Below are positions 12,605 to 62,795 of a stretch of 64,000 nt of DNA, piece by piece. The notes beneath the pieces are model-generated. The model saw only the letters and a list, made by a program, of their open reading frames with translations. It had not been told where the DNA came from and made no database searches. Position 1 is the stretch's first letter. Each line of letters opens with the position of its first letter. Both the position numbers and the translations under genes were made by a program. The DNA comes from Rhizomys pruinosus (lineage: Eukaryota > Chordata > Mammalia > Rodentia > Spalacidae), in the NCBI GenBank assembly GCA_009823505.1, contig VZQC01005743.1, positions 820,785 to 884,784 on the forward strand. The letters run 5' to 3'.

Positions 12605-14700
12605 TTTTTCTATTCCCCCCACCTCACCCCACCCCATCCCAGATCATGCATTCTGCCATAACTGTCCTGCATCTTTCTCTCATTTTTTTTCATTTTTTAG
12701 CAATACATGATAATTTATGAGTACAAGCACCCTTCATGTAAAACCAAGTTGCAGGCAGTTGTGCCCAAACCCACACAGCCCATGGGTCCCACCATCCAGC
12801 GGGGGGGGGGAGGGGGGCTGTATGTTCAACCAAGTTGATCAAATGAGTGTCCAGACTATATTGCTGTAGTTTCACCATTCACCCCAATCGCAGCCCTTAC
12901 ACTTTCTACTCAGCCACCTCTTCCGCAGATTTTCCCTAGGCTTAGAAAAGGCAAACAGGTGGATGAGAAGCAAAAACAGTCCACTCTCTCTGAATCTGTT
13001 GTCTGACTCTGAATATACTGTTTCCTTTCATGGCTGACAGTTTTGTCCAGGAATAACCTACCTACTAAGAAGCACAAGCAATTTAACTATATAGTATTTA
13101 AAATAGTACTACATATTGTTATGGTAGGTTACTTGTATAGACACAGATGGTGGATGGTATGCTAATCCATGAATAAAATTTTCTCTTTAAATATGCAGGT
13201 CTTACGGACTTATAACATCTCTTAACCATAGAGGACATAAGCTTCTCACTCACCGTGTTTCCTCCAAGGAAACACCAATATCCAATTAATTGGGATAATT
13301 GAAGGCAATGGTCGCCTCTGCTGCACAGTATTTCCAGGCAGTGATGAAGCTGTGTTGATGGAAGAACTCTTACCAAGGACCCATATTGCTTATTCGGTTT
13401 AGACCTTGTAACACTCTCTGGTATTCCAGAGCCATCTGTACACTTGCATGTTTCTCAAACATCTTCCCATAACTCAGCTTTGCAGCAGCCTTATTGCCTC
13501 TCTTCTTGCATGTATTCCAGTTTACAGGCAATAGCCTTTACCTTTTGAATGAATCCCCTGGCAGACGTCTCCTTGGTAGAATAAACCATTGCTGATGTCA
13601 AAGCTCCCGTATTAATATATTGTGCCTGAGTGCATAGCCCTAAGACGACTTAGGATTATTTGGCTTTAAATAGAGAATTAACCTTTTACAGTTCCTATGT
13701 CTATTGTCAATTAAAGAAGGCAGTTTATTGGTTTTATAAGATTACCTCTATAATAGTGTCTCCAAGTACAGTTGAACACATCATCATCATCATATTCTCC
13801 TTTTTATGGGGGTAAGAAATTCTCTCATATTAAAAACCTTGCAGCACCTAGAAGTAAGTTTCGTTAGATCCCATTATAAAATTGTTAAAAAGAAACCACA
13901 GAGGGGTGTGTTGACAATCTGAGCTTTCTCCTCATTTTAGCAGTCAATCTTCTCTTGCACTTTCTGATACATCCCTCAATCCAAACTTATCCTCTTCTTC
14001 TCACGTTAAGTGTGACTTTACTGTTGGAACAATAATCTTCCGTATAGTTTTAATTGAATGCAAGGTTTGATGAAGAAAACTGAAATTTCAAAATATTTAT
14101 ATCTCCCACCTCTTGTGTAGGGTTTTTTTTCCCATGAGTCTCCAGAAGACAATTGCATTATACATACCGATAGGAATCACAGCACAGATTTCATCAAATT
14201 CACCCATCTGTTTTGGGTTACTGTATGATTAACTGGAAGCAAACTTAATTTACGTTAAATCATCTTATAGTGAAAAGACTGCTATAAGTATACTGTTACA
14301 ACAGAAAAAATTTACAGAGAAACATTTGTATTGCCAATCCTAAATATTTATACAATTATGGAAACAAATTGACAACAGCATTTAATCTCCATTAACTCAG
14401 AGCACTTACCATTTTTATCAGACCTGAAACATGTTAATATATAACACATATTTACTTCTTACTAATCCTAAAAACACCATCAACCTGGTAGACAGAGGCG
14501 GGCAAAATGATACTGGTATTAACCACTCAATAATATGCATTAATGAATAACACCCATACCTCCCCACCTACTCCCACTCTTCCAATCACATTCATCAGTT
14601 TTCTGAGCACTCGCTGTTGTTGTTCTTACTATCATCCCCTCCCATGAAAAATATTTATCCGTTATGCACTAAATCCACATATAGACACCATTTTTTTTTT
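12605..14700 (-). repeat. Long 3' UTR of L1-B
   Basis: About 2.1 kb separate the end of ORF2 (TGTGTTACTTTACTTAACAT near 14710) from the element's outer end. The segment is shared, with divergence, with 37211-39390 and 59607-61560. It has one C-rich tract at its outer end (about 12616-12640) and another near 14555-14585. In element sense these are two G-rich tracts, each followed by a possible terminus. No coding frame is visible. Confidence 0.75.
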
Positions 14701-15669
14701 TTTCTTTGACTGTGTTACTTTACTTAACATAATACCTAGCCACCATTACCGCAAGTCATATGTGTCCCTCTACCACGGCATAAACTCATTGAACATTACC
14801 AATCTTATCCACTCGTCAGTAGGCACCTGAGCTTTCCGCTTTGCTATGAACAGAGCTCAATAAACATAGCTGTGTATCTCTGCAGTAAGATGTTCTTTGA
14901 ATACCAGAGTCATACTGTCAAAGGCAGCTCATTGATCTAATTCTCCACACTGCTTGTCCAATGGCTGACAGTGTACATCCCACAGCAAGGAGGAGTCCCT
15001 TTCCCAAAACCTCTCCAGCACTTAGTTCATCTATTCCTATCCTAGCCAGTACTTAATGCAGAAGATGATACCCAAAGTATTAATCTTGCATTTCCTAAGA
15101 TTAATTGATCACTTTTTAAGATGTTCGAGCCATCATCTATTCCTCCTCTGTAATCCTATCAGTCTTTATCCATCTTGATGATTTATTGTTTTCTTCTTCT
15201 TTGTTTATACATGATATCTGGAAATAATCTGTCAGATACTGCAATTGATTTCCTCACTCTTGTTTTCCTCACTGTCTTTTATGTACAAGTTTACTAAGAG
15301 TCCATTGGTCAATGTGATCATTATCTGGCAGCATGCGTTATAGACTCCTATGCCTATGTTTGTAGTCTGCTACCAACTTATTTCTTCTATCACCTTCAAG
15401 TTTGGGGTTTCACGTTGAGTCTTATCCACTGATGATCGGTATGTCCATTGAGTGTTAACGAGTTTAAGTCATTCTACAAAGGCATCCATTTGCCAACACC
15501 ACACCAACACGTCCCCCACTGTGTCTTATCCCCCTTGGCAAAACTCCTAGGGGCTTCGAGCAAATCATATCTATGCATTACTCATGATCTCATATGCCAA
15601 ATTCAATCCTGTCTTTTTGCCACATCTCAGCTGCGGTATACTATACCCTTCAAAATATTATCGAACCGT

Positions 15670-16290
15670 CGTTTTGTTTTCTAGCGCTCCCCATTATTTT
15701 TGGTTCGCTCCACGTGCCTCTATTCAGGCGGGGTTCCAAATAAGAAGGCCAACCTTAAAAAAGGGATGGGAGGAGGATGAAACGACACTATGGGGAGAGA
15801 CGACTAGATGAGGGCAGCACAGCGGAGGTCCATCGGGGGAGGGGGGAAGGGCAGCGAGGAAAAGTGAAGCCTGAGGCTGGAGTCCCGAGTATGGAGGGTG
15901 GACATGGAAGAAGCCGAGCACCACGTGCAGGGGTTGCTGAAGAAAGCGACGAAGGTTCGAATAGACGCCACTGGAGAAAACGTTAGCTCGAGGAAGGGTC
16001 GGGGCTTTAGCACCGGAGAACATCAGATCAGCAAAAATAGATTGACTCAGGTCAGGAACATGAGCATTGATGTATAGCCGAAATTATACTCATAACTTGT
16101 TTGAAGCGTCTTACGCTACAACCATGCCAAGCAATCGCAAGAAGAGAAAAAAGAGGGGAGGCAGCCTGGCTGCAGGTCTACCCTTTAAGAATGGCGGCGG
16201 CCCCAGTGAGCAGGTAACGCAATTTTAATATATAGTGACCCATTCCCGTTTCACATATACTTCAACTATCTTTCTACATCATCCCCCTCA
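15670..16290. other. Non-L1, CpG-containing block replacing part of L1-B ORF2
   Basis: L1 homology stops near 15665 (equivalent to 40600 in L1-C) and resumes near 16295 (equivalent to about 41310). The 620 bp between are GC- and CpG-richer than all the surrounding DNA, contain a G-run (15834-15849) and do not match L1. On the plus strand 16122-16213 reads as an ATG frame rich in Lys/Arg then Gly, ending at CAG/GTAACG, which resembles a first exon and splice donor; an ATG frame of 56 codons starts at 15904. I do not recognise either peptide. It could be a gene-conversion patch, an inserted exon-like fragment, or a mis-assembled segment. Confidence 0.5.
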
Positions 16291-17808
16291 AACCACTTTC
16301 CACTGTTCCTATATGGCTTGAACATTGATAAATCCCCAGCCAATTTCCAAGACTTAAACACGAAGATGTGATTTCAAGCTTTCTTCGCCTCAATTGAATA
16401 TGTTGTTTTCCTTCAGTCCGTTTATATTGATAAATATTATTTCTATGTTAACCATCCTGCATCCCTGTATAATCAACTTTCATCTATGATTTCTTGATTG
16501 CTGTATGCCTTTGCCAGACTTTAAGAATTTGCACATTGTTCATTAGAAGAGAAAGACATCGCACAATATATCTATATTCTCCTTTGTTTTCCCTTTTGTA
16601 AAATGTATGCGCTTCATAAGAATCTGAAGAACTCCTCATTTATCCTTCAAACAATTTGAGTAATAATTAATGGTTGTAAGTCTTTTTCGAATATTTTATA
16701 GAATTCTGCCGTTAAAACCTTCTTCCTGTCATTTGTTGACACTATACATCGTTCATCTTCCTATATGGTCATTGCTTCATCTTTCTTGTTGCTTATTCCC
16801 AGGATTTCAAATATTCATCATTTCTCTAGGTCAAAAGATAGAAGTAAGTTTTAAAAATCCAGTATCATGTCTAGATCTTGTCATTTTCTTTTGATATTTT
16901 CCCCTTTCATCACAGACATCTATATGAATTGTTTCCCCCTTCTTTTTCCTGTACTTGGCTAGAAGTCTGTCTATCTGGTTTATTTTCTCAAAGAACCACC
17001 TGTGTCATGTGGTATGGTTTCTTCTATTTCCATTAATCTCGCCTTTTTTATTCTTCTCTCTCCTTAGTATTGTTTTGTTCTCAAGATTTTAGCACAGTTA
17101 AATTCCTTCTCTTCTGTTTTTAATGTAGCACTAGACTATAATCCTCTAGGATTAAAATTGCCCATAGTTTGCGCTTGTAGTATCATCGGCATCATCCGAA
17201 GTTTTTATTTCTTTTCTTATTCTCCTTGACTCACATTAATCAGAGATGTTTAATCTCCATGTTCTGTAGGTAGGTATCCTGTGTTAATGATCTTATTGCA
17301 CTGTGTCTTGAATGCATGAATATTCAACATTTATATTTAGGTTTTTTTTTTATGTGTCCCAGTATATGTCCATTTTGAAAGTTCTGAGTGCGATAGCAAA
17401 GGATTCTCGTGTTTGGAAAATTGAAAGTCTTAGCCTATTTGGTGTGTCACATTAGTTCAGAAATTTCGTTTAATCCTTTCCCCTTTATCTATCTAGACTA
17501 GTGTACTAAAGTCCCCACATTAATCTGGTTAATCTGTGCCTTGAATCCTGAAGAATGTCTTTATAAAGTTTGTGCACCAAAGTTTGGTGCACACATATTT
17601 ATGATTGTGAGATCTTCATCAATCATTCCTTTAATAAACATGTAATAGCCCTCTGTCTTGATTCTTTTCTCTTACCGTCTATTGTCCGATCATTGCAAAC
17701 CACACCTCTTCTTTTTACATGCTTGAACTACTCTCATCCCTTACTTACAGTTCATATCCTTGAAATTGAATGGGTTCTGTACGAGCAGCATATAAGATGT
17801 ATTGTACC

Positions 17809-19238
17809 TCATCCAGTCTCCAGCTCTACCTTTATTGATTTAAGTCCCATAATACTTAAGGTAAATCTGAAGATGATGCTTTCTGTCACTTTATTATCCA
17901 TTGGTCTTCTAGCCTCTGATTTCACACCTATGGTTATGTTTAAGTTTCTTTTCCTAGGTGTTTGAGGATTGTTGCTCCTCTCTTCTGCCCTTTGAATTGC
18001 TTCAAGTATTTTATGAAGAGTTGGTTTTCCAGACATGTATTCCATCCTCTTGTTAATGTCAAGGAAGATTTTTCTCTCTCCTTCAACTATAGTCGACATT
18101 TTTACTGGGTAAAATATTCTGGGTTGGCATCCACAGTCCCTTAACACTGGGAATGCTTTGCTCCATGTTCTTCTTGCTTTCATGGTTTGAGCAGTCAGTT
18201 CTAATTCTGATGGGTTTCCCTTTGTATGTGACTTGTTTTTCTTTTGTAGCCCTCAAAATTTTGTTTTTGTTTTGGCCATCTAGCATTTTAACTATGATAT
18301 GGCGTGGGGTGTTTCTTTTCTGATCTGGTCTATTTGGGGTCCTATGTGCTTCTTGTATTTGTATGGGTTTGTCTATTTTTATTTTGGGGAAATTTTCATC
18401 TATTATTCTGTTGAAGATCTGATCAATACTATTCTTGAGATTCTTCTCCTTCCTCTATTGCTATGATGCAGAGGTTTGATCTTTTCATAGTGTCCCATAT
18501 TTCCTGGTTGTTCCACTTTTGTGTATTTTTAAATTTTTCATAATCTTTATTTGAGCTTTTTAATTGCTCTGTGTAATCTTCCAGATCTGATATTCTTTGT
18601 TCTGCTTCCTCAATTCTACTTCTGAGGCTTTTTCCTTTCCTTGCTTCTTGATTGGATGAGTATTCTAATTCCTTTTTCGTTTCATCCTGTGTTTTATTTA
18701 GTATTTCCATTTCCTTTTTGAGCTTCTCGATCTCTTCTTGGTGTTCCTTACTTCGTTGGTTGGCTTCCTTTGTCAGTGTTTCTACTTCCTTTCGGAGTTT
18801 GTATTTTTCTCCCTCTAGTTCTTTCTGGAGTTTGTCAATCTGTTCCTTTAGTTCTTTTCAAAGTTTGTCATTGTATCCCTCTAGGTCTTTTTTGAGTTTT
18901 TCATTCTCTTTCTTTAGTTCTCTGAATTATTCTTTATTTTTTTCTCCCTCTAGTTCTTTCTGGAGTTTGTCAATCTGTTCCTTTAGTTCTTTCTGATATT
19001 TGTCATTGTATCCCTCTATGTCCTTTTTGAGTTTTTCATTCTCTCTTTTTAGTTCTCTGAATTCTTCTTTATGTTCTTTAATTTCTCTGCATGGGTCTGC
19101 AATTATTCCTCTAAGATCTGTTCCTTGGGTCTCCTCCAAAGGGTTCCCATTGTAGCTATCTCCTACAGGTTTGGTAGAGCCTGGTGCAGAATTATCCTGT
19201 GCCTTTTCCATGTTGTCCCTTCGTCGTGTCCCTGGCAT
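17809..19238 (-). pseudogene. L1 ORF1: L1-B ORF1 (broken)
   Basis: ORF1 encodes the L1 RNA-binding chaperone. Here its pieces appear in several frames: an N-terminal segment and long Glu/Lys coiled coil (19238-18430) and a C-terminal RNA-binding region with a VTYKGKPIRI motif (about 18286-17965). Frameshifts separate these pieces. The coiled coil contains an internal tandem duplication (18811-19080). Confidence 0.75.
18811..19080 (-). repeat. 135-bp tandem duplication in the ORF1 coiled coil
   Basis: The block starting CCCTCTAGTTCTTTCTGGAG at 18811 recurs at 18946, exactly 135 bp (45 codons) later, and each unit runs on through TTTTTGAGTTTTTCATTCTC. L1-C has a single, shorter version of this region. 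The step keeps frame and lengthens the Lys/Glu heptad-like coiled coil. Confidence 0.8.
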
Positions 19239-19501
19239 GTGGGCTTCCCTTTTGTGGTTCAGATCACAAATAGTTTTTCACTATTTTAGCAGATGGTTTT
19301 GCTTTCCTCCTTCAGATGCTTTTTTTTTCTCCTCCTTGTTTATGGAGTATTTACTTGTCTAGTTTTCAGGCTTTCAATTTTGTTTATATATTGGATATTG
19401 GAAGCCAAAGCACTCTTCTCTTCTTGTTCCTAAGGTTCTCCAAAAAAATGTCCACTTGGATTCTCACTGATTACCAGGAGTGGTGGGGGGGGTATATGCC
19501 T

Positions 19502-19762
19502 GACCTAGCCTGCACCCCGGTACCTGCCTGAGTGAGTTCCAGCCAGCCTGCACAAAGGCGCAGAGTCACCAACCCAAACCTGCCGACCAAGACCAACTGT
19601 CTGGTCCTATGCAGAGGCACCGACCCAAACCCACTGACCTAGCCCGCGCCTCGTACCTGCCTGAGGGACTTCTGGCCAGCTCGCACAAAGCTGCAGAGGC
19701 ACTGACCCAAACCTGCCAACCAACCATCTGGTCAGGTGCAGAGGCACCAACCCAAACCCACT
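19502..19762 (-). promoter_or_regulatory. L1-B 5' UTR monomers (two tandem units)
   Basis: Two GC-rich tandem units (19502-19635, 134 bp; 19636-19762, 127 bp) share GACCTAGCC, GTACCTGCCTGAG, CACAAAG, AGAGGCACCGACCCAAACC and CACT. They end at the outer edge of the element next to the target-site duplication. Rodent L1 5' UTRs commonly consist of such promoter monomers, so this is the likely L1-B promoter. They are unlike the monomers of L1-C. Confidence 0.75.
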
Positions 19763-19763
19763 C

Positions 19764-24184: not shown

Positions 24185-24838
24185 TTACTATCAAATCTAG
24201 ACCTGTGTCCCCCTCCCTAACCCCCACTCTACCAGAGCTCATGCATTCTGCCAAACATGTTTTTCATCTTTTTCTCAGTCTTTCTCAAAATTCTTGATGT
24301 GGAAGTTGACTGTTTTGAGCAGAAGTTCACTGTTTCAGTCAGTTCTTTGACACAGTCTTTTCTGTTGTTGTTCTTCTTCTTCTTCTTCTTTCCAATATGC
24401 ATCACTCCCAACTACTTGGACAAAAGCTTAAGGGGCCGTGCACAAGAAGTACAGCTAGGTAATTGGCGCTAGCATCCACAGGTGAGGGTTAACATTTTTT
24501 GTTTGTTTTTCTGGGACTGTGTTACTTCACTTAACATAATATCTTCTAGTTCCATCCATTTACCTGCAAAGTTCATGATGTCATCTTTCTTTACTGCTGC
24601 ATAGAACTCCATTGTGTAGATGTACCACATTTTCTCTATCCACTTGTCAGTTGAGGGGCATTTGGGTTGGTTTCATCTCCTTGCTATTGTGAACAGAGCT
24701 GCAATAAACATGGCTGTGCATGTATCTCTGTGGGAAGATGAGTCTTGTGGGTATATACCCAGGAGTGGTATGACTGGGTCAGGTGGTAAGCTCATTTTGA
24801 GTCTTCCAAGGGTTCTCCACACTCCTTTCCATAGTGAC
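24185..24838 (-). mobile_element. L1 3' end (short 3' UTR form)
   Basis: Antisense 3' UTR beginning with GACCTGTGTCCCCCTCCC, the C-rich tract and ATGCATTCTGCC, a TTC-rich stretch (about 24373-24391), then the antisense end of ORF2 (24515-24835). The 3' UTR is only about 330 bp, unlike the 2-kb version of L1-B, C and D. The sequence stops at the N. Confidence 0.85.
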
Positions 24839-24839: not shown

Positions 24840-25010
24840 GTCTGTGTGCTTCTTTTATTGTTCTTCTTATATTGTCTTTCCTTAATTTAGGGAAGTTTTC
24901 CTCTTTAATCCCATTTAAGGTCTGGTCAATGACATTGACCAAGTTTCTTGCCTTTCCTCTATTCATGTAATTTGTAGATGTAGTCTTTTCATGTGTCCCA
25001 CATTTCCTGC
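24840..25010 (-). mobile_element. L1 ORF1 fragment
   Basis: Sequence such as AAGGTCTGGTCAATGACATT, CTATTCATGTAATTTGTAGA and GTCTTTTCATGTGTCCCACA aligns, with divergence, to antisense ORF1 at 18400-18510 and 43740-43850. Probably the other side of the same L1 as 24185-24838. Confidence 0.65.
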
Positions 25011-27200: not shown

Positions 27201-27867
27201 TGGTAAGCATGAGGCAGCCACCAGATCAGGCAAAACACCTTGAGTAATGTCAAAAAGGAGTAGACTTCTCCTGCAAGTTTTTTCTAGGAAAATGTGGTGC
27301 CCAGAGTGTCAAGGACAGCTTTCACAGAATGGGCAGGATAGATAAAAGGGAAGAGCTCAGACCCAGCAGACCCATCCTTAGAAACGCTGTTCTTGCCTGT
27401 GCATGTGTGGCTAACTCCACAGTTAGGTAAGGAATTACAAATGGACACTGAGCCATGACCAGGAGAGAACCCCAAGTGTAGTTAGCACATAATGCAGCTG
27501 ACCTGCCTGGATAGCTAGATAAAGGATTCTGGCATAGGCTATATGATCACTCAAAGACAAACAGCCCGGAAACAAGGGACTTGGTCAGGAGTGAGGTCAA
27601 GAAACCCTTCTTAAATTAGTATTGGTGACAGATAAGATGACAAAGAGAAAGGTTGAAAACATATTGTCTAAAATCTGCCAATGAGTCTCAAAGCCCCTTC
27701 AGCCTCAGGTTTAAGGGAATGTCTAGCTCCTGGGAGATTGAGTTCATATCCTCAGGAACAGATGAGTCCGCAGAGGATGAGATGAAAAGATCTAAGCAAC
27801 TAAAAGTAAACTAAGCACAGTGAGGGGAAGAAAAAGTGATGGGGAGGTCTGGGGCAAAGTCAGGGGG

Positions 27868-28352
27868 AAGGGTGGAATGGAAGACTAATGTCTACAGAGA
27901 CATACTGAGGGAGGTAGACCATAAAGAAGGGTGGAATAAAAGACTAATGTCTACAGAGAGGTATTGAAGTAGGTAGACCATAAAGAAGGGTCAAATGGAA
28001 GACTAGGATATCTACAGAGAGGTACTGAGGGAGGTAGACCCGTAAAGAAGGGTCAAATGGAAGACTAATATCTACAGAGAGGTTACTGAGGGAGGTAGAC
28101 CCATGAAGAAGCATCGAATGGAAGACTAATATCTACATAGAAGTTACTGAGGGAGGTAGACCCGTAAAGAAGGGTCAAATGGAAGACTAATATCTACAGA
28201 GAGGTTACTGAGGGAGGTAGACCCATGAAGAAGCATCGAATGGAAGACTAATATCTACATAGAAGTTACTGAGGGAGGTAGACCCACAAAGAAGGGTCAA
28301 ATGAAAGACTAATATCCACAGAGAGGTACTGAGGGAGGTAGATGTAAAGAAG
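27868..28352. repeat. About 60-bp minisatellite, eight units, with a 122-bp higher-order dimer
   Basis: Eight units of 58-62 bp share GGAAGACTAATATCTACA, GAGAGG, ACTGAGGGAGGTAGACC and AAAGAAG. Units beginning GGGTCAAA and GCATCGAA alternate twice (about 28042-28286), so a 122-bp pair was itself duplicated. No gene overlaps the array. Confidence 0.95.
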
Positions 28353-28524: not shown

Positions 28525-29120
28525 TATTAATGCTTTTGATGCTTTGTATATTTCAGACATCATTTTTCAGTTCAATTAGACATATTCCTTCCCATCCACC
28601 CACCCACCCTAGACATCATGCATTTTAAGCCCATAAATGCCTTTGGTATCCTTCTCTCAGTCTTTATGTTTAGGCGAATACACATTTTCCTCTTTTAACC
28701 TTTCTATATTATTCTAACCAATATGATACATCACCTTCCACCCGTATACAGCAATTACAGAGTCTGAAAATAATTGGTGGGTTGATTCTAGAGCTCGTTA
28801 AGAGATTTAAATTATAAAAACATAGTTGCTATCAGATAAAAAGAAATTATAGCACGTAATGTTCAAGTCAGCTTCCGCTTTCAACGGGCGATTATTCGGC
28901 GTTAGCATCCACAAGCAATGAGGCTTACCACTTCACGCACCTTTTTTCTGGTAACTGTGTTACTTCACTTAGCCCTAATTGCTTCAAGTTCCATTCATTT
29001 TTTACCTGCAAAGTTCATGAACATCTATTCTTTACCACTGAATAGTACTCATTGCCTGTAAGACATGTACCACAGAATATCTTTACAGGCATCTTCAAGA
29101 CTTGGTATTTTAACATCTGC
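28525..29120 (-). mobile_element. L1 3' end fragment, noisy
   Basis: Outer C-rich tract (CCATCCACCCACCCACCC, about 28592-28610), then sequence leading to GTAACTGTGTTACTTCACTT and CCTGCAAAGTTCATGA, the antisense ORF2 end. Short 3' UTR form. Differences from other copies include many single-base indels. Confidence 0.7.
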
Positions 29121-37196: not shown

Positions 37197-37210
37197 GAGA
37201 GTTTCAGTTA

Positions 37211-39390
37211 TTTTTTTCCTTCATTTTTTATTTGATTTTTTAAACAATAAGTAATAGGTAATGAATACAAGCATACTTCATGTAAAACCAGTTTGCAAGC
37301 TGCTATGCCCAAACTTATACAGCCCAAGGGCCCTGTTGTACAGCCGGAGGGGCTTGTATGTACAATCATGTTGATCAAATAAGAGTCCAGTCTATATTGC
37401 TGTAGTTTCACAATTCATCCCAATCGCAGCCCCTACATTCTACCATGCCCCCTCTTCTGCAGATTATTCCCTAGGCTTTAGAAAAGGGGCACAAGTGGGC
37501 AAGAAGCAAAACAGTCTACTTTCTCTGGAGATGTTGTTTTGGACTCTGATCAGTTCAGGCTATTTCCTTTCATGGGTTGGCAGTTTATCCAGGAATAACC
37601 TTTTAATCCTACTAATGAATCATAAGCAGTTAGATATACAGGCATTTAAACAGTACTAATTATTATGGCAGGTTATGTTGGTATAGACACAGATGTTTGG
37701 ATGGTATGATAATCCATGAACTATAGCTTTTCTATAAAGGTGACAATGTCTTACTGTGGCTTATAACATCTCCTAACCACTAGAGTACATAAGCTTCTGG
37801 CATCAGCCATGAATTACTCCTCCAAGGAGAGAGCTACTAATAGTGTCAACTAGATTTGGGATATACAGACACATGGCTGCTACTGCTACACAGTATTTAC
37901 AGGCAGGTGAGGTGTAGCTGGTGCTGACGGAGGAGTCTTGCTTGACTCAAGGAGACCAATATTTGCTTTATTGATTTAGTAGCCTTTGGTAACACTCTCT
38001 GGCATTCTAGAGATCAATTGTACACTTGCGAGTGCGGTGTCAGTACATCTTTCCAATGCTTACACCAGGTCTTCCACAGCAGGGCCTTACTCCCTCTCTT
38101 CTTGCAGGTATCCTAGTTTACAGGCAAAAAGCCTTTACCTTTTGGGGGGGGGGCTTGGATCCCCTACCCAACATCTTCTTGGCAGAATAATCCATTGATG
38201 ATATCAGAACTCTCCTGTATTAATATATTTTGCTTAATTACACAGCTTATAAAGACTTTAGTATTATATTTGGCTCTGAATAGAGAATTATCCTTTCCAG
38301 TTCCTATGTCTATCAGTCAATTAAAGAAAGCAGTTATACCAGTTTTATAAAGGATTACCTCTATAACAGTTGGCTCTAATTTACAGTTAGGTAATGACTT
38401 CATTACCATCATGTTTTACTTTGTTCTATGAAAAGGAGGTAAGAAAGTCTCTCATATTAAATTTTTTTGGCACCGGGAAGGTAAAGATAATTAGAACTCA
38501 TTATAAACAGTTGCTACAAATAGGATCCACAGATATGTTTGATGCCCATAGCAGTCTGAGGCTTTTCTTCCTTTTAATGTTTAGATGGGCCACCATCTCT
38601 GCTGTTATTTCTTGGTACATCATGCACAATGCAAAGCTGTATCTTTTCTTTCTCAGCCATTAAGTTGGTGATGTTTTGACCCATGGGAACATGCAAATCT
38701 TTTCCCATAGTTAGTTTTAAGATTTAAATTGAAAAATTTGACAAAAGCTTTAATATATAACTGTGTCCCCCCTTTTTTATTTTAGGTTTTATATTTTGAC
38801 CCGTGAATCTCAAAAAGGCAGTCATAGTACACATACCTATAGGCAGGAATCAAGGTGTAATTTTTCATTAAAATTACCCAAGCTGTTTATCATTGACTGT
38901 ATGCTGTTAATTTGGGAAGCAAAGTTATTTCATTAAGTTAAATTATCCTACAAGTAAAAGAAAATGTTACTAGATGATACCAAACAACACAAAAATTATA
39001 GAGAACATTTGTATACATTAACCCCAAAGTTGTTGTTATAAAATTATAAGGAAAACAAATGTTGACAAAAATTTATATTTCCAATTAGTTTAAATGTATT
39101 GCTGTTTTTATTAAAACATTTTAACCAATGTTGTTTAATATAGACATTTTTTACTTTTAGTAAGTCTTAAATACCATATAATATGTAGACAAAGTTTGGA
39201 CAAATTTAGATACCCATAAAACTCACATCAATTAAATATACATAAATGGAATATAGACCTGTGTCCCCCTCCCAACCCTCCCACACCACCAGAGTCAACA
39301 TTTCAGTCAGTTCCTTGATCCAGACTTTTCTGTTGTTGATGTTGTCGTTGTTCTTTCCAATATGCATCACTCCCCACAATAAATATTTAT
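37211..39390 (-). repeat. Long 3' UTR of L1-C with internal second 3' end
   Basis: Positions 39255-39295 carry the usual L1 3' end signature (GACCTGTGTCCCCCTCCC and a C-rich tract) also seen at 24205. Here the element continues a further 2 kb to the target-site duplication, through sequence shared with L1-B and L1-D. L1-C stops slightly short of the outermost C-rich tract present in those two copies. A G-run occurs at 38142-38152. Confidence 0.8.
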
Positions 39391-39392
39391 AA

Positions 39393-42300
39393 TTAGGTTA
39401 TTGGTGATAGCATCCACACATGAGGAATACTATTTGTCATTTGTTTTTTCTGGGACTGTGTTACTTCACTTAACATAATAACTTCTAGTTCCATCCATTT
39501 ACCTGCAAAGTTTATGATGTTGTCTCTTTTTACTGCTGCATAGAACTCCATTAAGTGGATGTACCACATTTTCTCTATCCACTCATCAGTTGAGGAGCAT
39601 TTGGATTGGTTCCAGCTTTCTGCTGTTGTGAACAGAGCTGCAATAAATACAGCTGCACATGTATCTCTGCAGTAAGATGAGTCTTGTGGGTATATACCCA
39701 GGAGTGGCATGACTGTGTCAAATGGCAAGGTCATTTTGAGTCTTGCAAGGGTTCTCCATACTGCTTTCCGTAGTGGCTGTACATGTTTACATTCACATCA
39801 GCAATGGATGAGTGTTCCCCTTTCCCCACAACCTCTCCAACACTTGGTGTTATTTATTTTCTTTATCCTAGCCAGTCTTATTGAGTGAAATGATATCTTA
39901 AAGTGGTTTTAATTTGCATTTACCTAAATATTAGTGATGTTGAACACTTTTTAAGATGTTTCTCAGCCATCTATAATTCCTCACTATGAAGTCTTTGTTC
40001 AGCTCTTTGCTCCATCTTTTGAGTGTTTCATTTGTTTTCTTTCTTCTTTGTTTTTTGAGTAGTTTACATACTCTTGAAATTAATGCTTTTTCAGATGTAC
40101 CTGTGGTGAAGATTTCCTTCCACTTTGTGGGTTTCCTCTTCACTTCCTTGATTGTTTCTTTGGATTTACAGAAGCTTTTGAGTTTAATGAGGTCCCATTT
40201 GTCAATTGTCGACCTTATTTCTTGTACAGCTGCTGTCTGATTTAGGAAGTCTTTTCCTATGCCTATATCTTGTAGTCTGCTGCCAACTTTTTCTTCTATC
40301 ACCTCCAGAGTTTGGGGTTTCACATTGAGGTCTTTGATCCATCTGGAATTGACTTTTGTACAGGGCGAGAGGTAGGGGTTTAATTTCATTCTTCTACAGA
40401 TGGTGATCCAGTTTTGCTAACACGACTTGCTGAAGATGCTGTCTTTCCTCCATTGTGTCTTCTTGGCCCCCTTGTCATATATGAGGTGGCTGAAATTGTA
40501 TTTGCTCAGGTTTGTACCTTCAGTTTTGTTCCATTCATCAACAGATCTGCTTTTGTGCCAGTACCAAGCTGTTTTTTATGACTATAACCCTGTAGTATAG
40601 TTTGAAGTCTGGTATAGAGATCCCCCCTGTGTAGCTCTTTTCACTCAGGGTTGTTTTGGCTGTTCGGGTTCTTTCGTTTTTCCAAATGAATTTAAGGACT
40701 TTTTTTTCCAAGCAAGTGAAGAAACTCTTGAGGATTTTCATTGGGATTGTGTTAAATCTATATAAGAGTTTTGGTAGAATGGACATTTTTACAATGTTAA
40801 TTTTCCCAAACCATGAGCATGGAAGTTTTTTCCATCTTCTGATGTCTTCTTCAATTTCCTTCTTCAGGGGTTTAAAATTTTTGTTGTAGAGTTCTTTGGT
40901 GTCTTTGTTTAGGTTTGCTCCTAGGTATTTTATTGTTTTTGAGTCTATTGTGAGTGGGAAGGTCTCCTTGAATCCTTTCTTCAGTTGTTTGTTGTTGGTA
41001 TAAAGAAAGGCTACTGATTTTTCTAGGTTAATTTTGTATCCTGCCACTTTACTGAAGCTCTTAATCGTTTCTAGGAGTTTTCTGATGGAGTTTTTAGCAT
41101 CCCTTAAGTAACAATCATATCATCAGCAAATAGGGATAGTTTGACTTCCTCTTTTCCAATTAATACTCCTTTAATTTCCTTTTCTTGCCTTATTGCCCTA
41201 GTAAGTGTTTCAAGCACTATATTAAAAAGCAGTGGTGACAGGGGGCAGCCTTCTGAGTTCCTTCATTTAAAGGGCATGCTTCTGTCGTTTCCTCATTTAG
41301 GATGATATTGGCTGTGAGTTTCCTGCATATGGCACTGATTACATTGAGGAATGATACCACCAATCCAATTTCCTCTTGGACTTTCAGCATGAAGGGATGC
41401 TGGATTTTCTCAAAGGCTTTTTCTGCATCAATTGAGATGATCCTGTTTTCTGTCTTTCAGTCCATTTATATGTTTGATGATATTTATTGATTCTCATATC
41501 TTGAACCATCCCTGCATTTCTGGTATGAATCCAACTTGTTTATGTTGGATGATCTGCTTGTTGTTGGTCTGTATGTGATTTGCAAGTATTTTGTTTAGAA
41601 TTTTTGCATCTGTGTTCATTAATGAGATGGGTCTATAGTTCTCCTTTTTGGTTGTATCTTTGCCTGATTTTGGTAGTAGAGTGAGGCTGGCTTCATAGAA
41701 GCTATTTGGGAGAATTCCCTCTGTTTGTATCCTTCTAAACAACTTGAGTAATAATGGTTGTAATTCTTTTTGAAATGTTTTATAGAATTCTGCTGTGAAG
41801 CCATCTGGGCCTGGGATTTATTTAGTTGGGAGGTTTCTTACTATATCTTCAATTTCTTCATATTTTATTGGTTTGTTTAAGCTGTCAATCTATTCTTGGT
41901 TGACCTTTCTTGATTCCCAGGATTTCAGATATTCATCCATTTCTTCTAGGTTTTCAAACTTTGTAAAGTATAGGTTTTTGAAGTATTCCCATTTGATTGT
42001 CTGGATATTTTCATTGTCTGTTGTGATATTTCACCTTTCATCACAGATTCTATTGATTTGAACTTGTTCCTTCTTTCTTTTGGTTAACTGAGCTAGAGGT
42101 ATGTCTATTTTGTTTATTCTCTCAAAGAACCAACTTTTGGATTCATTGATTTTTTTGTATGGTTTTCTTTGTTTCTATTTCATTGATTTCTGCTCTGATT
42201 TTTGTTATTTCTTCTTGTTTGCTGCATTTAGGGTTCATTTGTTGTTGTCTCTCAAGTGGTTTTACCTGCAGTGTTAGATTGTTCACTTGTGCTCTTTCTG

Positions 42301-43241
42301 TTTTTTTTTGATGTAGGCACTGAGGGCTATAAACTTCCCTCAGGGCAGTTTTTAAAGTGTCTCATATGTTTTGTTGTGTTGTATTATCTTTGCTATTCAG
42401 TTCCAGGAATGCTTTTATGTCTTTCTTTATTTCTTCCTTGACCCATACATTATTCAAGAGTGTGTTGTTTAGTCTCCATGTGTTCTTGTAGGTTGTAGTG
42501 CTTATCCTGGTGTTGATATTGAGCTTTATTGCACTGTGGTCTGATAGAATGCATGAGATTATTTCAATCTTTTTGTATCTGTTGAGTTTTTTCCTGTGTC
42601 CCAGTATGTGGTCTATTTTGTGGTATGTTCCATGGGGTGCTGAGTAGAAAGTATACTCTCTGATGTTTGGGTGGAATATTCAATAGATGTCTGTGAGTTT
42701 CATTTGGTGTATTGTATTATTCAGTTCAGATGTCTCTCTGTTTATTCTTTGTCCTGTTGATCTGTCCAAAGAGCTTGGTGAGGTATTTAAGTCCCCTGTT
42801 ATTAGTGTCCTGGGGTTAATCTGTGCCTTGAGGCCCTGAAGAATTATCTTTATAAAGTTTGGTGCACCAGGGTTTGGTGCACATACATTCATGATTGTGA
42901 AATCTTCATGGTCAACTGTTCCTTTGACAAAGGTGTAATGGCCCTCTTTGTCTCTTTTGATTTCTTTTACTTTGAAGCCTATTTTGTCTGATATTAAAAT
43001 AGCAACACCTGCTTTCTTTTTGCTAACATTTGCTTGGAATATTTTTTCCAACCCTTCACCTTAAGTTGGTTCCTATCCTTGAAACTGAGATGGTTTTCCT
43101 GTAGACAGCATATAGATGTTTTTTTTCCCTAATCCAATCTCCCAGTCTATGTCTTTTGATTGGGGAGTTTAGTCCATTAATATTTAAGGTTATAATTGAA
43201 AGGCAGATGTTGCTTCCTTTCTCTTTATTATCCATTCGCAT
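39393..43241 (-). pseudogene. L1 ORF2: L1-C ORF2 (endonuclease / reverse transcriptase), frameshifted
   Basis: ORF2 makes the endonuclease and reverse transcriptase that drive target-primed reverse transcription. Pieces in different frames show the start (MRMDNKEKG, then ITLNINGLNSP, 43241-43056), the endonuclease core with a GDLNT motif (43051-42680), RT motifs ([20 protein letters not shown], 41742-41494), FADD (41119-41130), and the C-terminal region (41047-39393). At least five frameshifts or stops interrupt about 1280 codons. Some may be consensus errors. Confidence 0.88.
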
Positions 43242-43321
43242 TTTTAGTCTCAGTTTCTACTTCTGCAGTTATGTTTTTATTAGTTTCTCTTTCTAGGTGC
43301 TTGGGGATAGTTGTTCCTCTC

Positions 43322-44415
43322 TTATGCCCTTTGAATTGCTTCAAGTGTTTTCTGAAGAGCTGTTTTTCTGGAGATGTATTCTATCATCTTTTTTATGTCA
43401 TGGAAAATTTTCCCCTCTCCTACTATAATCGACATTTTTGCTGGGTATAGTAACCTGGGTTGGCATCCATAGTCCTTTAATCCTGGGAATGCTTTGCTCC
43501 ATGTTCTTCTTGCTTTCATGGTTTGCACTAAGAAGTCAGTTGTAATTCTGGTGGGTTTCCCCTTATATGTGACTTGTTTTTCTTTTGTGGCTTTCATAAT
43601 TTTGTCTTTGTTTTGGGTGTCTAGCATTTTAACTATGATATGGCATGGGGAGTTTCTTTTCTGATCTTTTCTGTTTGGAGTTCTATGTGCTTCTTGTATT
43701 TTATGGGTTTGTCTTTTTTTGTTTGGGGAAATTTTAGTCTATTATTCTGTTGAAGATCTGATCAATACTATTCTCTTGAGATTCTTCTTCCTGTATTCCT
43801 ATGATGTGGAGGTTTGATCTTTTCATAGTGTCTAATATTTCCTGGTTGTTCCACCTTTGTTTATTTTTAAATTTTTCATAATCTTTATTTGAGCTTTTTA
43901 TTTGCTCTGTGTTATCTCCCAGGTCTGATATTTTTTTCTCTCCTTCCTCTATTCTATTTCTGAGGCTTTTTCCATTTGTTTCCTCTTGATTGGATGAGTG
44001 TTCTATTTCCTTTTTCATTTAATTCTGTGATTTCTTTAGTATTTCCCCTTCCTTTTGGAGCTTCTCAATCTCTTCTTGGTGCTCCTTTCTTCACTGGTTG
44101 GCTTCCTTTTTCAGTGTTTCCACTTCCTGCTGGAGTTTGTCATTTTTCTCCCTCTAGTTCTTTCTGAAGTTTGTCATTCTCTCCCTTTAGTTCTTTCCGA
44201 AGTTTGTCATTATCTCCCTCTCGGTCCTTCTTGAGTTTTTCATTCTCTCTCTTTAGTTCTCTGGCTTGTTCTTTATATTCTTTAATTTCTCTGAATAGGT
44301 CTGCAATTGTTCCTCTCAGATCTGTTTCTTGGGTCACCCCCAGGGGGATCCCACCATAGCAATCTCCTACAGGGTTGGTGGAGGTTGGTGTGCAATTATC
44401 CTGTACCTTTCCCAT
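43322..44415 (-). pseudogene. L1 ORF1: L1-C ORF1 (RNA-binding protein), frameshifted
   Basis: ORF1 encodes the trimeric nucleic-acid chaperone of the L1 particle. An N-terminal segment and Lys/Glu coiled coil lie at 44415-44140, more coiled coil at 44018-43734, and the C-terminal RNA-binding domain at 43627-43322 with VTYKGKPTRITTDF and AKMSIIV motifs. Two or more frameshifts separate these segments. Confidence 0.85.
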
Positions 44416-44679
44416 GTTGTCCCTTCATTGTGTCCCTGGCATGCAGGTTTCCATTTTTTTTTTTACTGTATTCCAATGCAAATCACAAATGTCTTTTCAC
44501 TGTGTTGAAAGCTTGCTTTGCTTGCCTCCTTCAGATGCCTTTTTTCCCCCTCCTTGTTTATGGAATGTTGACTTGTCTGGGTTTCAGGTTTTCAATGTTT
44601 ATATATTGGAAGTCTAATTCACTCTTCCTTTTATGTTCTGAAGGTTCTCAAAAAAAAATCCACTTGGACACTCTCTAAG

Positions 44680-45083
44680 CAATTCCAGTTGGCAGGGGGG
44701 TGGGGTATGCCTGACTTATCCTGTGCCTTTGTACTCTATGCTTCAGGTGGTCCTGGCAAGGAGCTGACCTAACCATTGCACATTCAAGTCTCACAGTGGT
44801 GACAGGCCCATGGGCTACAAGGGCGACTCCACCCAGACAGCCACACCGACAAGGGTTTAACAGGCCAATCTTTGATCCCAGCAAGCAGGGCCATTCCACC
44901 CCACCAGCCTTCACAAGAGAAATACTTCACTATCCAACAAACCAACAAATCAGTTATCCAGCAACTCAAGAGGAGACCAATCCTAAAATCTGCCTGGCTG
45001 AAGCTCCTGGCTCCTACCTGTGCTTCAGGTGGTCCTAGCAAGGCCCTGACCCAACCACTGCACACTAAAGTCTCACAGTGGCC
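44680..45083 (-). promoter_or_regulatory. L1-C 5' UTR with repeated monomer
   Basis: A block containing CTTCAGGTGGTCCT, GCAAGG, CTGACC, CCA.TGCACA and AGTCTCACAGTGG occurs at about 44741-44803 and again at 45021-45081, 280 bp apart, the second at the outer edge of the element. This is the layout of one full plus one partial promoter monomer. It shares no visible similarity with the 130-bp monomers of L1-B. Confidence 0.7.
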
Positions 45084-45207
45084 GAGAGTTTCAGTTACTT
45101 AAACTTGAGGAAATATTTCTATAAATCAGTCACTAAATGTAGTTAATTAAAAGGAGTTAAATAAAAGGCAATTTATTGGTAAAATCATGGAATTATTTCT
45201 TGCTACA

Positions 45208-50383: not shown

Positions 50384-50640
50384 GGGCGGGAGAGATAGGC
50401 CTAGCGGTTAAGAGCACCGACGCTCTTGCAGAGACCCCACCCAGGTTTCGATCCCCAAGGCACCCACATGGCGTCTAAAACCGTCTGTAACTCCAATTAC
50501 CAGAGAACTCATTCCAGGGGAATCCTAGACCCTCTCTGACTCCGCGGCATTGCACGACATGGGTGCACAGACATCCATGCAGAAAACTGCATTCATACAC
50601 ATACAAAAAAAATAAATACATAATAATAAAAAAAAATTAA
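50384..50640 (+). mobile_element. B3-type SINE, copy 1 of duplicated block
   Basis: Sense B3 with numerous one- to three-base errors relative to copy 2 (GAGACCCCACCCAGG versus GAGGACCCGGG; AACTCATTCC versus AACTCCAGTTCC). Flanked by the target-site duplication AAAATTTTAAAGATGT. Confidence 0.9.
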
Positions 50641-50984
50641 AAAACAAAATTTTAAAGATGTCTACAGGTTCTGCTCATTTCTGAGAAATGTCAAGTACTC
50701 CAGTGAACTTCCATCTTTTAAAAAAAATTGTTGTGTGCCTCTATTTACCATCACATAAATGGTTAGCTTTCTTATACATCCCTGTCTTCTGAAGAGTTTT
50801 AGCATGTAAAACTCCATGAAATCACTTCAGTGAAACTTGTTTCTATTACCAAACTGCTTTTTATGTCTTCCAATTTTATGTATTCAGTTTTGAAAAAAAA
50901 ATATACCTTGTTATGTATGATATTCTGCGTTATAAAAATTAATTTAATTAATTAATTAATTATTTTATATTATTTAATTACTTA

Positions 50985-51175
50985 TAGTGTATATGTATAC
51001 CTGTATGTGTAGGTCCATGTTTGCACCTGTGGAGTCGGAGTCCAAAAGAAGGGGCATTGGATTCCACGGACCTGGAATTACAGAAGGTGGAAAGCAGCCC
51101 CATGCGGGTATGCAAAACCACTCATTCCCTGGAAGAAAGACAAAGAATAAACTGCTGATCCAGCCCCCCAGTCCC
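50985..51175 (-). mobile_element. Diverged B3-type SINE, copy 1 of duplicated block
   Basis: CTGTATGTGTAGGTCCATGT, CACCTGTGGAGTCGGAGTCC, GGAATTACAGAAGGTGG and CCATGCGGGTATGCAAAACC keep antisense order of an old B3. The second copy lies at 52560-52750. Confidence 0.65.
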
Positions 51176-51239
51176 CCTTGGTTTTCTTCTTACTACATTG
51201 TCTCCACCGAGGAGCCTAGGCTTATAACTGCTCTTCCTA

Positions 51240-51585
51240 GTCTCTTTTGATGCTGTGAAATAAAACTCTGATCAAACCCTTCTTGGAGAAAAGGTAATTG
51301 GGCTTAGGTATAACCTGATCCAGTTTTCCAGTGAGGAAAGACGGCGAGGAGCAGAAGCACAGACAATGGAAGAACCCTGCTTGGTAGTGACCTGTTCATG
51401 TGGACTGTGTTCATCCTGCTTTCCCATACAACCCAGAACCACCGTGGGCCCTGGGTAGCAGCACCATATACAGAGGGCTGGGTTCTCCCAAAAACTCAAC
51501 AATCAAGAAATGGTTCCTTCTTCCCATTTATCTCCATGGTTCCTTTCAATTTCGTGGCTCCTGCAGTTAGATCAGGTTACCATTG
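51240..51585 (-). mobile_element. URR1-like remnant, copy 1 of duplicated block
   Basis: AAACTCTGATCAAACCCTTC, GAGGAGCAGAAGCACAGAC, TACAACCCAGAACCACC, GGGTAGCAGCACCATA and CTCAACAATCAAGAAATGG resemble the URR1 layout seen at 29135-29545. The second copy is at 52810-53150. Confidence 0.5.
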
Positions 51586-51599
51586 AGTAGAACCTCAGG

Positions 51600-51760: not shown

Positions 51761-51969
51761 GAGAGAGCAGGAGAGAGGTGTGTATTAAAGGGGAAATGGG
51801 GAAAGGGTGGTATTTTTAACATTGGGAAATCAGGAAGTGAAGGATTAGACAGAGGCAAAGTGAGAGGAGAGACAATAGTTTTAGATGATAGGAAAAAACC
51901 CCTGTTACCTATATTACGCTGTAAGTTCACTAAAAATATCATGCAGTTAATAGGTGAAAAAAAAAAAAA

Positions 51970-59606: not shown

Positions 59607-62600
59607 TTTTTTTTTTTCATATAACAATTTTTTTTATTGTGCTTGTGGCCATTTCATACTCATTTCTTCAAATCAGTTCAGGCTATATCCCTTTCCCTTC
59701 ACCCCTCGCCCCACTCCACCCCAACCTATCCCACGGATCATGCAATTCATGCCTATATCGGTCGCCTCACCTGAATTTCTCTCAGTTTTTTTTCCATTTT
59801 TTAGGCTATGAATGATCATTCACCTCCATTCGAGTACAAGATCCTCTCTGTAATAACCAATTTGCCAGTCTGCTCTGTGCCACAACCTACACCCACTAGT
59901 CCACCACCTCCAGCGGTGCCGTGACGGGTGTTGTATGTTTCAATCAGGTTATTGATAAATGAGGTTGTCCAGCTACTATCATTGCTGTAGTTCTCACCCT
60001 TCACCCCAATCGTTAGCCTCTTACATTTCTACCACAACTCCCCTCTTCCGCGCAGATTATTTCCCTGGGCTTTAGAAAAACGGGCACAACGTGAGTGAAG
60101 AAGGCAAGCGTCCCACTTCTCTCTGGAGTTCTGTTGTTCTGATATTCTGGGTCATCTTGGCTGTTTCCTTTCATGTGCTGACAGTTTCTGTAACTTCTAC
60201 GAATTACCTCTGATCTCAATTCAATGAAAGCACAAGCAATTAGAAATATATAGGTACTTTAAGAGTCACATTTAATAGTTATGGTAGGTTACTTTGTTAT
60301 CAGACATAATGTTAGATGAGATGTTGATCCCGAAACTACATTTTTTCCTGTTAAATTGACGGGGGTTTCTCTGTGGCTATGATATCTCCTAACCTGTGAG
60401 AATGTAAGCTTGTGGCATCAGCATCGGGTTCATTCCATCCAAGGAGAGAGCTACAAACGCAATTAGATTTGGGTATACAGCAATATGGCTGCCTCTGCTG
60501 CACCATCTATGTTGCCAGGAGGTGAGGTTGTAGCTAGCGTCTGATGGTGGTAAGTTTGCTTGGGCTCAAGCGATACCCGTATTTGCTTTAGTTTGTACGT
60601 GGCCCTTGGTTAACCACTCTCTGGTATTCCATAGGGCCATCTGTACACTTGCATGTGTGGTGGTCTCATTACATCTTTTGCCATGTTATCACAGGTCTTC
60701 ACAGCCAGGGCCTACTGTCCATTCTTCTTCTGCAGGTATCCCAGTTAGAGGCAAAGGAGCCTCTTTACATTTTGTGGGACACTCTCCTAGAGCCCGGCCT
60801 CAACATTCTCCTGGTGGAATAATCCAATGTACTGATTCAGCAGCTCTCTGTTTAATGACTATTATGTGCTTAATCATATACGGATTTAAAGATGTTATAT
60901 TTGCGTTATGTATTAGATGAGATTCTTCTTTTCACTGTGCTTATGGCTCATTAGTCCAATAAGTAAGGGCAGTTGACCCAGTTTCTTTAAGAGATTAACG
61001 ATCCCTATATGTTTGTCCTCACAATTTACCAGTTTGGCACGAGCAACCCCATTATTCTTCATATTTTTCCTTGCTGGTGGGGAGGAAGAAAGTCTCTCAT
61101 ATCAAAAACCTTTGTGGCACACTAGCAAATGTAAGTTTCATCAGGACCCCCTATAAATTAGTTGTTGACACTACAGTGACCTTTATATGCTCATTAATCT
61201 GTGGATGCTATTACCATTTATCAGAGTCTGTTTAAAACAATGTTTTAAATCCACATTATTTACTTTACTAATCCTTAAAACACCATGTATCCTGTAGAGA
61301 AGTGTCTAGGAAAAACTGGGCACTTGTTGAACTCATGTCAATAACATTATGCATTAATCGAATATTAACACCATGTGTTCCACCCCCACCCCGCTCCCTT
61401 CCCAATTCACCTTTATTTTGGTCCATTTTCTGATGCTATAGTACCTTCTGTTGTTGTTTTTTTACTACATCCCTCTCCATGAGCCAATGTTTACCCTATC
61501 TTGGGTTATTTGCGGAACTCAGTTCATCCACCACATATAGCGGACACCATTTGTCGTTGTGTTTTTGGGACTGTGTTACTTCATCTTAACATAAATGTTT
61601 CTAGCTCCAATCCCTTTACCTGCAATGTCATGAGTTGTCCATCTTTACCGCTGTCATAGAATCCATTGTATAACTGCCAATTTACTCTATACCACTCGTC
61701 AGTCGTGAGGGGCCTTGGGCTGGTTCACAGCTTTCTTGCTATTGTGAACAGAGCTGCAATAAAACATCGCTGTGATGTATCTTTGCCTTAGAGAAGATGT
61801 TTGTTTGAGGTATATACCCTGGAGTGGTATGGGACTGGGTCCCAAATGGAAGGCTGTTTTGAGTCTTTCTAAGGTTTCTCCACACTGATTTCCATAAGTG
61901 GTGTACAGTTTAGCATTCCCACCTCCAGCAGATTCGACTTGAGTGTCCCTCTTCCACACCTTCTCCAGCACCTGGTATCATTTGTTTCTTGTACGGTTTT
62001 TTTTTTTTGTTTATTGGTAAAGTTGATTCTCTCTTTTATTTTCATTTCTTAATTATTAGTTGGTGTTGAACACTTCTTAAGAGTTTCTCTGGCCCATGCT
62101 ACATTTTCCCCCCCTCCCTCCCCATGTGTGAAGTCCTCTATTTCAGTATTTGCGCCCACTTTTGAGTGTTCTTTCCATTTGTTTTCTTTCTTCTTTGTTT
62201 TTGAGTAGCTCCTGTATACTCTGGAGATTAATGCTTGTCCAGAGTGTTGTCTGCAGTGAAGGTTTCCTCCAATCTTGTGTGGTGGTCTCTTTTTCACTTA
62301 CTTTGTTGTTCTTTGTGAATGTACAGAAGCTTTTGAGTTAAAGATAGATCTCGATTTGTCAATTGTTGATTTATATATTCTTGTTGCAGCTGCTGTCGCT
62401 TTAGGCAGTCTTTTCCTACCACCTTTTACTGTTCTTGTAGTCTTGGCTGCCAAGTTTACTTTCTATATCACCCTCTCAGAAGTGGGGCCGTTTAATCGGT
62501 TGCATCTTAGGTACTTTGGCCATGCTGGAGTTGACTTTTGTTACAAGGTGAGAGGACTAAGGGGTTAATTTCATTCTTCTATACTAAGGCGCGTGATTCA

Positions 62601-62795
62601 TTCTCTTTAATTGGCCCTTTGCATACCATTGCTTAAGATGCTTCTGTCTTCCTCCATTGTGTCTTCTTTGGCCCCCTTGTCAAAATTATGTGCTCAGGTT
62701 ATGGGTGCCTGAATTGTTGTAGAGAGTCAGGTTTTGGATCTTCAGCTTTTATTCCATTTGGTAATCAAGCGTTGGTCTGTTTTTGTCGTGCCAGT
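59607..62795 (-). mobile_element. L1-D, 5'-truncated minus-strand L1 with long 3' UTR
   Basis: Poly-T at 59607 (element tail), the outer C-rich tract (about 59700-59730), the 2-kb 3' UTR shared with L1-B and L1-C, the internal C-rich tract (about 61381-61405) and the ORF2 3' region (61565-62795). L1 homology ends at GTGCCAGTATACC near 62795. The sequence is full of one-base insertions relative to L1-C (for example TTTGTTTGAGGTATATACCC), so ORF2 frames are fragmentary. No target-site duplication is visible. Confidence 0.85.

Follow-up and report, generated by a model that had tools for sequence, protein, structure and literature searches.

Introduction

Exchanges of 5' UTRs and of portions of the 3' UTR are known among L1 families, and a G-rich tract close to the 3' end is usual for mammalian L1. 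In L1 3' transduction, read-through beyond the L1 end takes flanking DNA along and a poly(A) remnant stays at the junction; such transductions usually comprise one or few copies. Old mammalian L1M families have kilobase-size 3' UTRs, and we know of no doubled 3' end among them.

Among the closest described systems, mouse L1 families exchange 3' parts and are reported to recombine where ORF2 meets the 3' UTR (Sookdeo et al. 2013, PMC3600994). In the horse family L1_Ec1_VII, the 5' UTR was lengthened by ~1.2 kb of upstream sequence, and the perissodactyl L1 3' UTR measures ~100 bp (PMC5872511). Chimeric L1 insertions with other RNAs have also been catalogued (PMC13174262).

Here, we analyzed a window of 64,000 nucleotides (the whole stretch of DNA given above) from Rhizomys pruinosus, together with the host genome assembly (3.67 Gb), and describe an L1 family with about 2 kb of additional 3' UTR. 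The A-run at its outer junction is like that of a 3' transduction; unlike a transduction, a whole family is involved and the inner junction carries no remnant. The L1M families share the kilobase-size 3' UTR, a likeness in size. As in the recombinant mouse L1, 3' parts have been renewed, but the consulted portion of the mouse study concerns like parts exchanged among L1s and describes neither a 2-kb addition nor a doubled 3' end (PMC3600994). The horse family was lengthened likewise, but at the 5' end (PMC5872511). In searches of an open-licence library, none of the titles and abstract starts listed described a doubled L1 3' end.

Results

Long L1 elements in the window

Copies with an outer L1-type 3' end are called O-ended, and copies closing in an A-rich tail are called A-ended. 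The G4-type runs were called by a simple pattern. The long elements and their parts are as follows.

37211..45083, minus strand: L1-C, whole element, A-ended long form, TSD-bounded, 7.87 kb, with ORF2 and ORF1 matches
37197..37210: TSD of L1-C, 3' side, 14 nt, adjoining poly(T)
45084..45097: TSD of L1-C, 5' side, 14 nt
39250..39292, minus strand: inner L1-type 3' end of L1-C, G-rich tract plus GACACAGGTCTATATT, G4-type run at 39265-39282
37242..39249, minus strand: extra 2-kb 3' UTR of L1-C, co-linear in L1-B and L1-D
37211..37241, minus strand: A-rich end of L1-C
12605..19763, minus strand: L1-B, O-ended long form (TSD; self-BLAST)
12593-12604 / 19764-19775: TSD of L1-B, 12 nt, adjoining poly(T), outside the outer tract
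12605..12697, minus strand: outer L1-type 3' end of L1-B, second G tract (G4-type) at 12615-12640
14557..14590, minus strand: inner G-rich tract of L1-B (MAFFT)
12698..14556, minus strand: extra 2-kb 3' UTR of L1-B (MAFFT and 2-kb profile)
59607..62682, minus strand: L1-D, O-ended long form, 5' limit being the limit of alignment with L1-C
59607..59806, minus strand: outer L1-type 3' end of L1-D, G tract (G4-type) at 59689-59732, AATAAA
61383..61403, minus strand: inner G tract of L1-D, G4-type run
59807..61382, minus strand: extra 3' UTR of L1-D, lacking ~0.8 kb of the middle (MAFFT)

The first-pass annotation had reported about 2 kb of shared sequence after ORF2 in the three elements and had made its reading depend on their being co-linear through the internal junction. 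MAFFT alignment agreed on both points: L1-B, L1-C and L1-D, all on the minus strand, run from the ORF2 end through the inner G-rich tract into ~2 kb, with L1-D lacking ~0.8 kb in the middle of the extra 3' UTR, around 61115-61188. The inner tracts announced for the three elements were likewise recovered by MAFFT, with G4-type runs in L1-C and L1-D; the inner tract of L1-B (about 14557-14590) and the tract of S24, a short L1 form listed below, are G-rich without matching the G4-type pattern. The inner 3' end of L1-C is homologous to the terminal tract of the short forms.

Two successive L1-type 3' ends had been proposed for this lineage. The second, outer end is present in L1-B, in L1-D and in many genomic copies, but not in L1-C, which terminates just short of that point in an A-rich tail without an outer tract. 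L1-B finishes directly past the second G tract, without AATAAA, and L1-D continues to AATAAA. The outer end of L1-B matches the O end of L018 at 85.7% and also matches a 96-nt segment of S24 (P95).

The ORF2 frame of L1-C reaches 39393, which gives a 3' UTR of ~2.18 kb (39392 to 37211). The ORF2 C-terminus (96 residues) matches residues 1166-1263 of human ORF2p (E 3e-33), and the Pfam domain Tnp_22_dsRBD of ORF1, upstream of ORF2, lies at 43322-43627 (E 4e-10). The endonuclease gave a weak Pfam match below the cut-off, and five of the seven ORF pieces scanned had no Pfam match. L1-B sits antisense within another L1 (11207-12603 / 19787-23226; self-BLAST). The exact TSDs first noticed outside L1-B (12 nt) and L1-C (14 nt) are present and adjoin poly(T). 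A control matched in size to the L1-C search, with adjacency not required, gave at least 14 shared nt in 1/185 random pairs and at least 12 nt in 6/185. The search for a TSD of L1-D found none.

Other repeats were noted in the window. A weak match to the 2-kb profile at 163-891 on the minus strand (E 3e-7) is perhaps an old fourth copy, a tandem array of ~60-nt units, 83-91% alike, occupies 27867-28352, and B1- and B2-like SINEs, recognized by eye, point to a rodent genome.

Short L1 forms

Two L1 pieces in the window had been described as having short 3' UTRs, at 24185 and 28525, and both proved to be of that form.

24185..24838, minus strand: S24, short-3' UTR L1, with ORF2 end, 96-nt P95 segment, G tract and terminus
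28525..29075, minus strand: S28, short-3' UTR L1, with a terminus of the O type like the outer ends, without the 2 kb

The O-end match in S28 spans 28536-28609 (83.5%). S24 is set apart by the P95 segment ahead of the G tract, and a rough first look at the genome gave 2004 candidates for its short 3' UTR. The stretch that contains S24 (23233-24842) recurs on contig C2931, 97% identical and with other flanks on both sides; in the window it ends near the N at 24839, as a misplaced or duplicated piece. The possibility that S24 is the flipped 3' end of the L1 hosting L1-B was ruled out, as the stretch occurs with a longer ORF2 on another contig. Two further ends were noted: in locus L027, the short L1 3' end at 1990-2330 looks, on visual inspection, like an intermediate of the S24 and O termini, and an O-type L1 3' end with AATAAA lies at 9440-9600 on the minus strand of the window, where no preceding 2-kb match was found.

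Genomic copies of the 2-kb sequence

Rough first-look searches gave 6223 candidates for the middle of the 2 kb and 7630 for the ORF2 end. Among the best 40 places scored for the middle of the 2 kb, the 39 others were 90-92% identical. An 801-nt query over the ORF2/2-kb junction was covered over at least 796 nt in 40/40 of its best places, at 87-100% identity with the window's own copy included, although best-40 lists favor whole-query matches, so that 40/40 and 39/39 counts from them, here and below, are biased towards joined copies. The longer form is thus a true L1 lineage that amplified, as the first-pass annotation had supposed.

The annotation had also asked how many copies are joined to ORF2 and how many stand alone. 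A first sample, chosen solely for the ORF2 end, took the first 20 of the 39 further best-listed places; 16/20 of these copies continue into the 2 kb. Two of the rest have a short 3' end (L037 and L045), L043 departs just past the tract, and L044 departs near the ORF2 end. A second sample comprised twenty 10-kb C-like loci out of the 39 other best-listed places found with the 2 kb. ORF2 is kept in 13/20, either straight or with a 5' inversion, 5/20 are 5'-truncated within the 2 kb, and the remaining two are an ambiguous locus (L014) and a locus cut by the contig end (L017). Nearly all 20 have one 3' end in common, beyond which lie an A-rich tail and then unrelated flanks. TSDs of 10-16 nt were found at the right place in 6/15 copies, each length being reached by at most 2 of ~180 controls; the other nine share only 4-8 nt, which proves nothing. 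The copies therefore carry the marks of target-primed insertion, namely A-tails, TSDs, 5' truncations and 5' inversions.

The absence of ORF2 from five of the 20 C-like copies is what would be expected if the 2 kb were an independent repeat or a SINE-like element that chances to adjoin L1s. These five, however, resemble 5'-truncated copies with the same 3' end, and joined copies dominate the C-like, junction (40/40 best-listed places) and ORF2-selected (16/20) sets, so we rejected this explanation on the samples and consider it extremely improbable. The junction-spanning places, the ORF2-selected copies, the shared 3' end and the TSDs together identify the 2 kb as the 3' UTR of an L1 family that has a high copy number and moves as one unit.

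The extra 2 kb of L1-C had no Rfam match, and no Pfam match was obtained for five of the longer ORFs among the 42 listed; a coding or structured-RNA insert was dropped on this basis. A scan of viral contigs with one 26-nt motif gave 0 matches in a collection that may omit records near this genome.

Inner junction

The short copies L037 and L045 match the long copies through the G tract and ATTCGATT and then diverge. Past ATTCGATT, the short forms read 30-45 nt more and a tail, and the long forms enter the 2 kb. A poly(A) remnant was sought at the inner junction of the long copies and no A-run was found; the remnant that precedes transduced sequence in a 3' transduction is thus absent there. 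In the window self-comparison of the 2 kb with L1, the only matches were its own copies in L1-B, L1-C and L1-D. Because the short forms share the tract and then diverge, and because there is no A-run, the inner tract seems to be a former L1 3' end minus its last stretch.

Outer junction

The 3' regions fetched for 15 copies comprised nine A-ended regions (L058, L060, L061, L062, L064, L065, L067, L068 and L070), one with the outer end (L066), one with a B2-like SINE immediately past the A-rich stretch (L057), and four in which the 2-kb end was absent. Many A-ended copies close in AATAAA within the A-rich stretch, some with AATAAAGAAGTAATAG. The unfilled AATAAAGAAGTAATAG end gave 1793 first-look candidates, and 39/39 of the other best-listed places align across it at 94-98% over 141 nt.

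In the O-ended form, all seven copies inspected (L1-B, L1-D, L021, L024b, L066, L018b and L067) have an A-run followed by an L1 end. The A-run is variable, with A-rich units containing C in L018b and L067. It leads into (C)TGAGA in L1-B, L1-D, L021 and L024b, and into variants of this motif in L066, L018b and L067. The (C)TGAGA start corresponds to the second half of P95 and is followed by a G tract and an S28-like terminus. The O end is related both to S28 and to the P95 segment of S24. The O fragment measures ~135 nt to AATAAA (135 nt in L018b, 134 in L021 and 153 in the noisy L1-D); an exact AATAAA is present in these three copies and absent from L066, L024b, L067 and L1-B. A G-rich tract lies near the 3' end in the short and O-ended forms, whereas A-ended copies have it ~2 kb away from that end.

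The two bases before the A-run of O-ended copies are TT in L066 and L018b, CT in L1-B, L1-D and L021, and GT in L024b, that is, TT in 2/6 copies where the pair is visible. Among 10 A-ended copies inspected, the pair is visible in eight and reads TT in seven and CT in one. By its anatomy, the outer end looks like a 5'-truncated L1 inserted in the A-rich tail, with a target motif that is not uniformly TT/AAAA, since CT or GT precedes the A-run in L1-B, L1-D, L021 and L024b.

The double-ended form is abundant and moves as a unit. The O end plus 40 nt of the 2 kb gave 2495 first-look candidates, and the 2-kb sequence with the outer end is present in 40/40 best-listed places. At locus C2554, ORF2 (L074), the inner tract with the start of the 2 kb (L040), and the end of the 2 kb with the O end (L066) follow one another within 3.6 kb, with a 1.05-kb gap in the reading between L040 and L066. 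L018b is nested within a known C-type copy and carries the 2 kb, the O end and a tail, all between short TSDs (10 nt by script, a length reached by 2/179 controls, and 12 nt by eye).

Assembly quality

Single-N joints occur in the window at 4075, 24839 and 51970. The same locus appears twice flanking the last of them (50386-51962 and 51971-53526), at 92% identity with 69 small indel events, and this doubled locus is probably an assembly artefact that gauges the local sequence noise. Over the last 345 nt, gaps per 100 nt number 4.3 in L1-B and 12.2 in L1-D, versus 0.3-0.6 within clean groups, and mismatches (9.5% in L1-B and 12.2% in L1-D) compare with 7.3% and 9.7% in the clean O-ended copies L066 and L018b. 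The small indels are mostly deletions in L1-B (12605-18943) and mostly insertions in L1-D (59607-62682), a noise that suggests a poorly polished long-read consensus.

Noisy or duplicated stretches could imitate a long family, and the single-N joints, the doubled locus and the gap-rich L1-B and L1-D would agree with such an artefact. The artefact does hold for the raw divergence of L1-B and L1-D, which is misleading because both lie in indel-noisy assembly. As an account of the family itself it is highly implausible, as the same structure is found in cleaner copies across many contigs. Dating by divergence, which the annotation had proposed, was rejected for the window copies, as it fails for the gap-rich L1-B and L1-D (4.3 and 12.2 per 100 nt).

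Age and phylogeny

A 1481-nt query from L018b was covered over at least 1466 nt in all of the best 40 places, and the 39 others were 96-98% identical, identities in best-40 lists being dependent on the query. The older O type shows 90-95% identity and is about as old as the C-type copies. Over the last 345 nt, the pairwise difference is 8.9% among C-type copies (19 copies) and 7.9% among other A-ended copies (7 copies). The most alike of the copies analyzed, which are thus probably the youngest, belong to the double-ended lineage. By the same measure, one A-ended type (94-98% over 141 nt) is nearly as young as the youngest O-ended copies.

The UTR tree, rooted at the midpoint only, has strong forks at 6/34 and places the O-ended copies near the root; the deepest copies (L1-D and L024b) are indel-noisy. 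L015, L020, L023b and L090 were removed manually from this tree, and a length filter took out five partial BLAST pieces. The O labels of L024b, L1-B and L1-D were set by hand, as their automatic scores (95, 106 and 89) were below the cut of 110. Because L001-L008 and L030 duplicate the window or other loci, subsequent counts exclude them. The ORF2 tree, which took in only copies with enough ORF2, is mostly unresolved (27/36 inner branches open) and therefore does not order the short and long forms.

Discussion

We describe an L1 family whose composite 3' UTR was, with a probability of about 0.6, built in at least two steps, including a nested L1 insertion. The first-pass annotation had interpreted the long form as an amplified lineage whose ancestor read once through its own poly(A) signal into downstream L1-like sequence. 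The true, amplified L1 lineage and its second 3' end stand, but a single read-through is not supported in that form, as the inner and outer junctions differ in kind.

In the first step, a short-3'-end L1, with a G tract and ~50 nt, would have had its last part replaced by ~2 kb, through read-through with loss of the old tail or through recombination. The new 2-kb end would have supplied a poly(A) signal of its own, AATAAAGAAGTAATAG in a common type, and so given rise to the A-ended long form. In the second step, as the anatomy of the outer junction suggests, a 5'-truncated L1 3' fragment of ~135 nt, comprising a second G tract and AATAAA, would have entered the A-rich tail of a long element by target-primed reverse transcription, and transcripts of the grafted copy would then have terminated at the grafted signal. 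A two-step history fits better because the inner junction has no A-run, the outer junction has an A-run and a truncated L1 end, and many copies stop earlier.

The older O-ended copies of about C-type age, the A-ended type that is nearly as young as the youngest O-ended one, and the varying target pair before the A-run stand against two steps, as do the missing poly(A) remnant at the inner junction and the fact that no source of the 2 kb was found. We favor an order in which the A-ended form came first and the O end was grafted later, given the A-run, an O end that looks 5'-truncated, and the well-defined A-ended terminus; the position of O-ended copies near the midpoint root of the UTR tree opposes it. 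The A-ended ends could instead stem from a new AATAAA in the O-ended form, and the A-ended terminus ATAAAGAAGTAATAG bears a weak likeness to the O-end start ATAAAGATGCAGGATAG.

The same observations bear on a one-step 3' transduction, in which transcription of an L1 would have continued, in a single event, past the poly(A) signal and across 2 kb of host DNA to include a downstream L1 3' end, with A-ended forms arising later via a new poly(A) signal that removed the outer end. The rooting, the existence of older O-ended copies (90-95%) and the weak resemblance of one A-ended terminus to the first nucleotides of the O end would fit this course of events. However, the inner junction shows neither an A-run nor a complete short terminus, one of the A-ended termini is clearly defined and common, with 1793 candidates at first look, and the A-run ahead of the O end resembles a tail or a target site. 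We regard one-step transduction as unlikely, though a serious competitor of the two-step history.

A further proposal, which we hold to be quite doubtful, builds on the two-step history. The G tract of the A-ended lineage would have been stranded 2 kb away, a chance L1 3' fragment would have restored a tract by the poly(A) signal, and the repaired form would now be among the youngest lineages. Should such a repair have been driven by selection on a tract near the 3' end, the family would represent a natural loss-and-regain experiment on the conserved L1 G tract.

Short, A-ended and double-ended L1 copies coexist in this genome, where a family gained a 2-kb 3' UTR and many of its copies a second L1 3' end. 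Counts of natural copies thus allow a comparison of how L1 amplification uses poly(A) signals and the G-rich tract, and the second ends suggest that L1 elements can reconstruct their termini by grafting.
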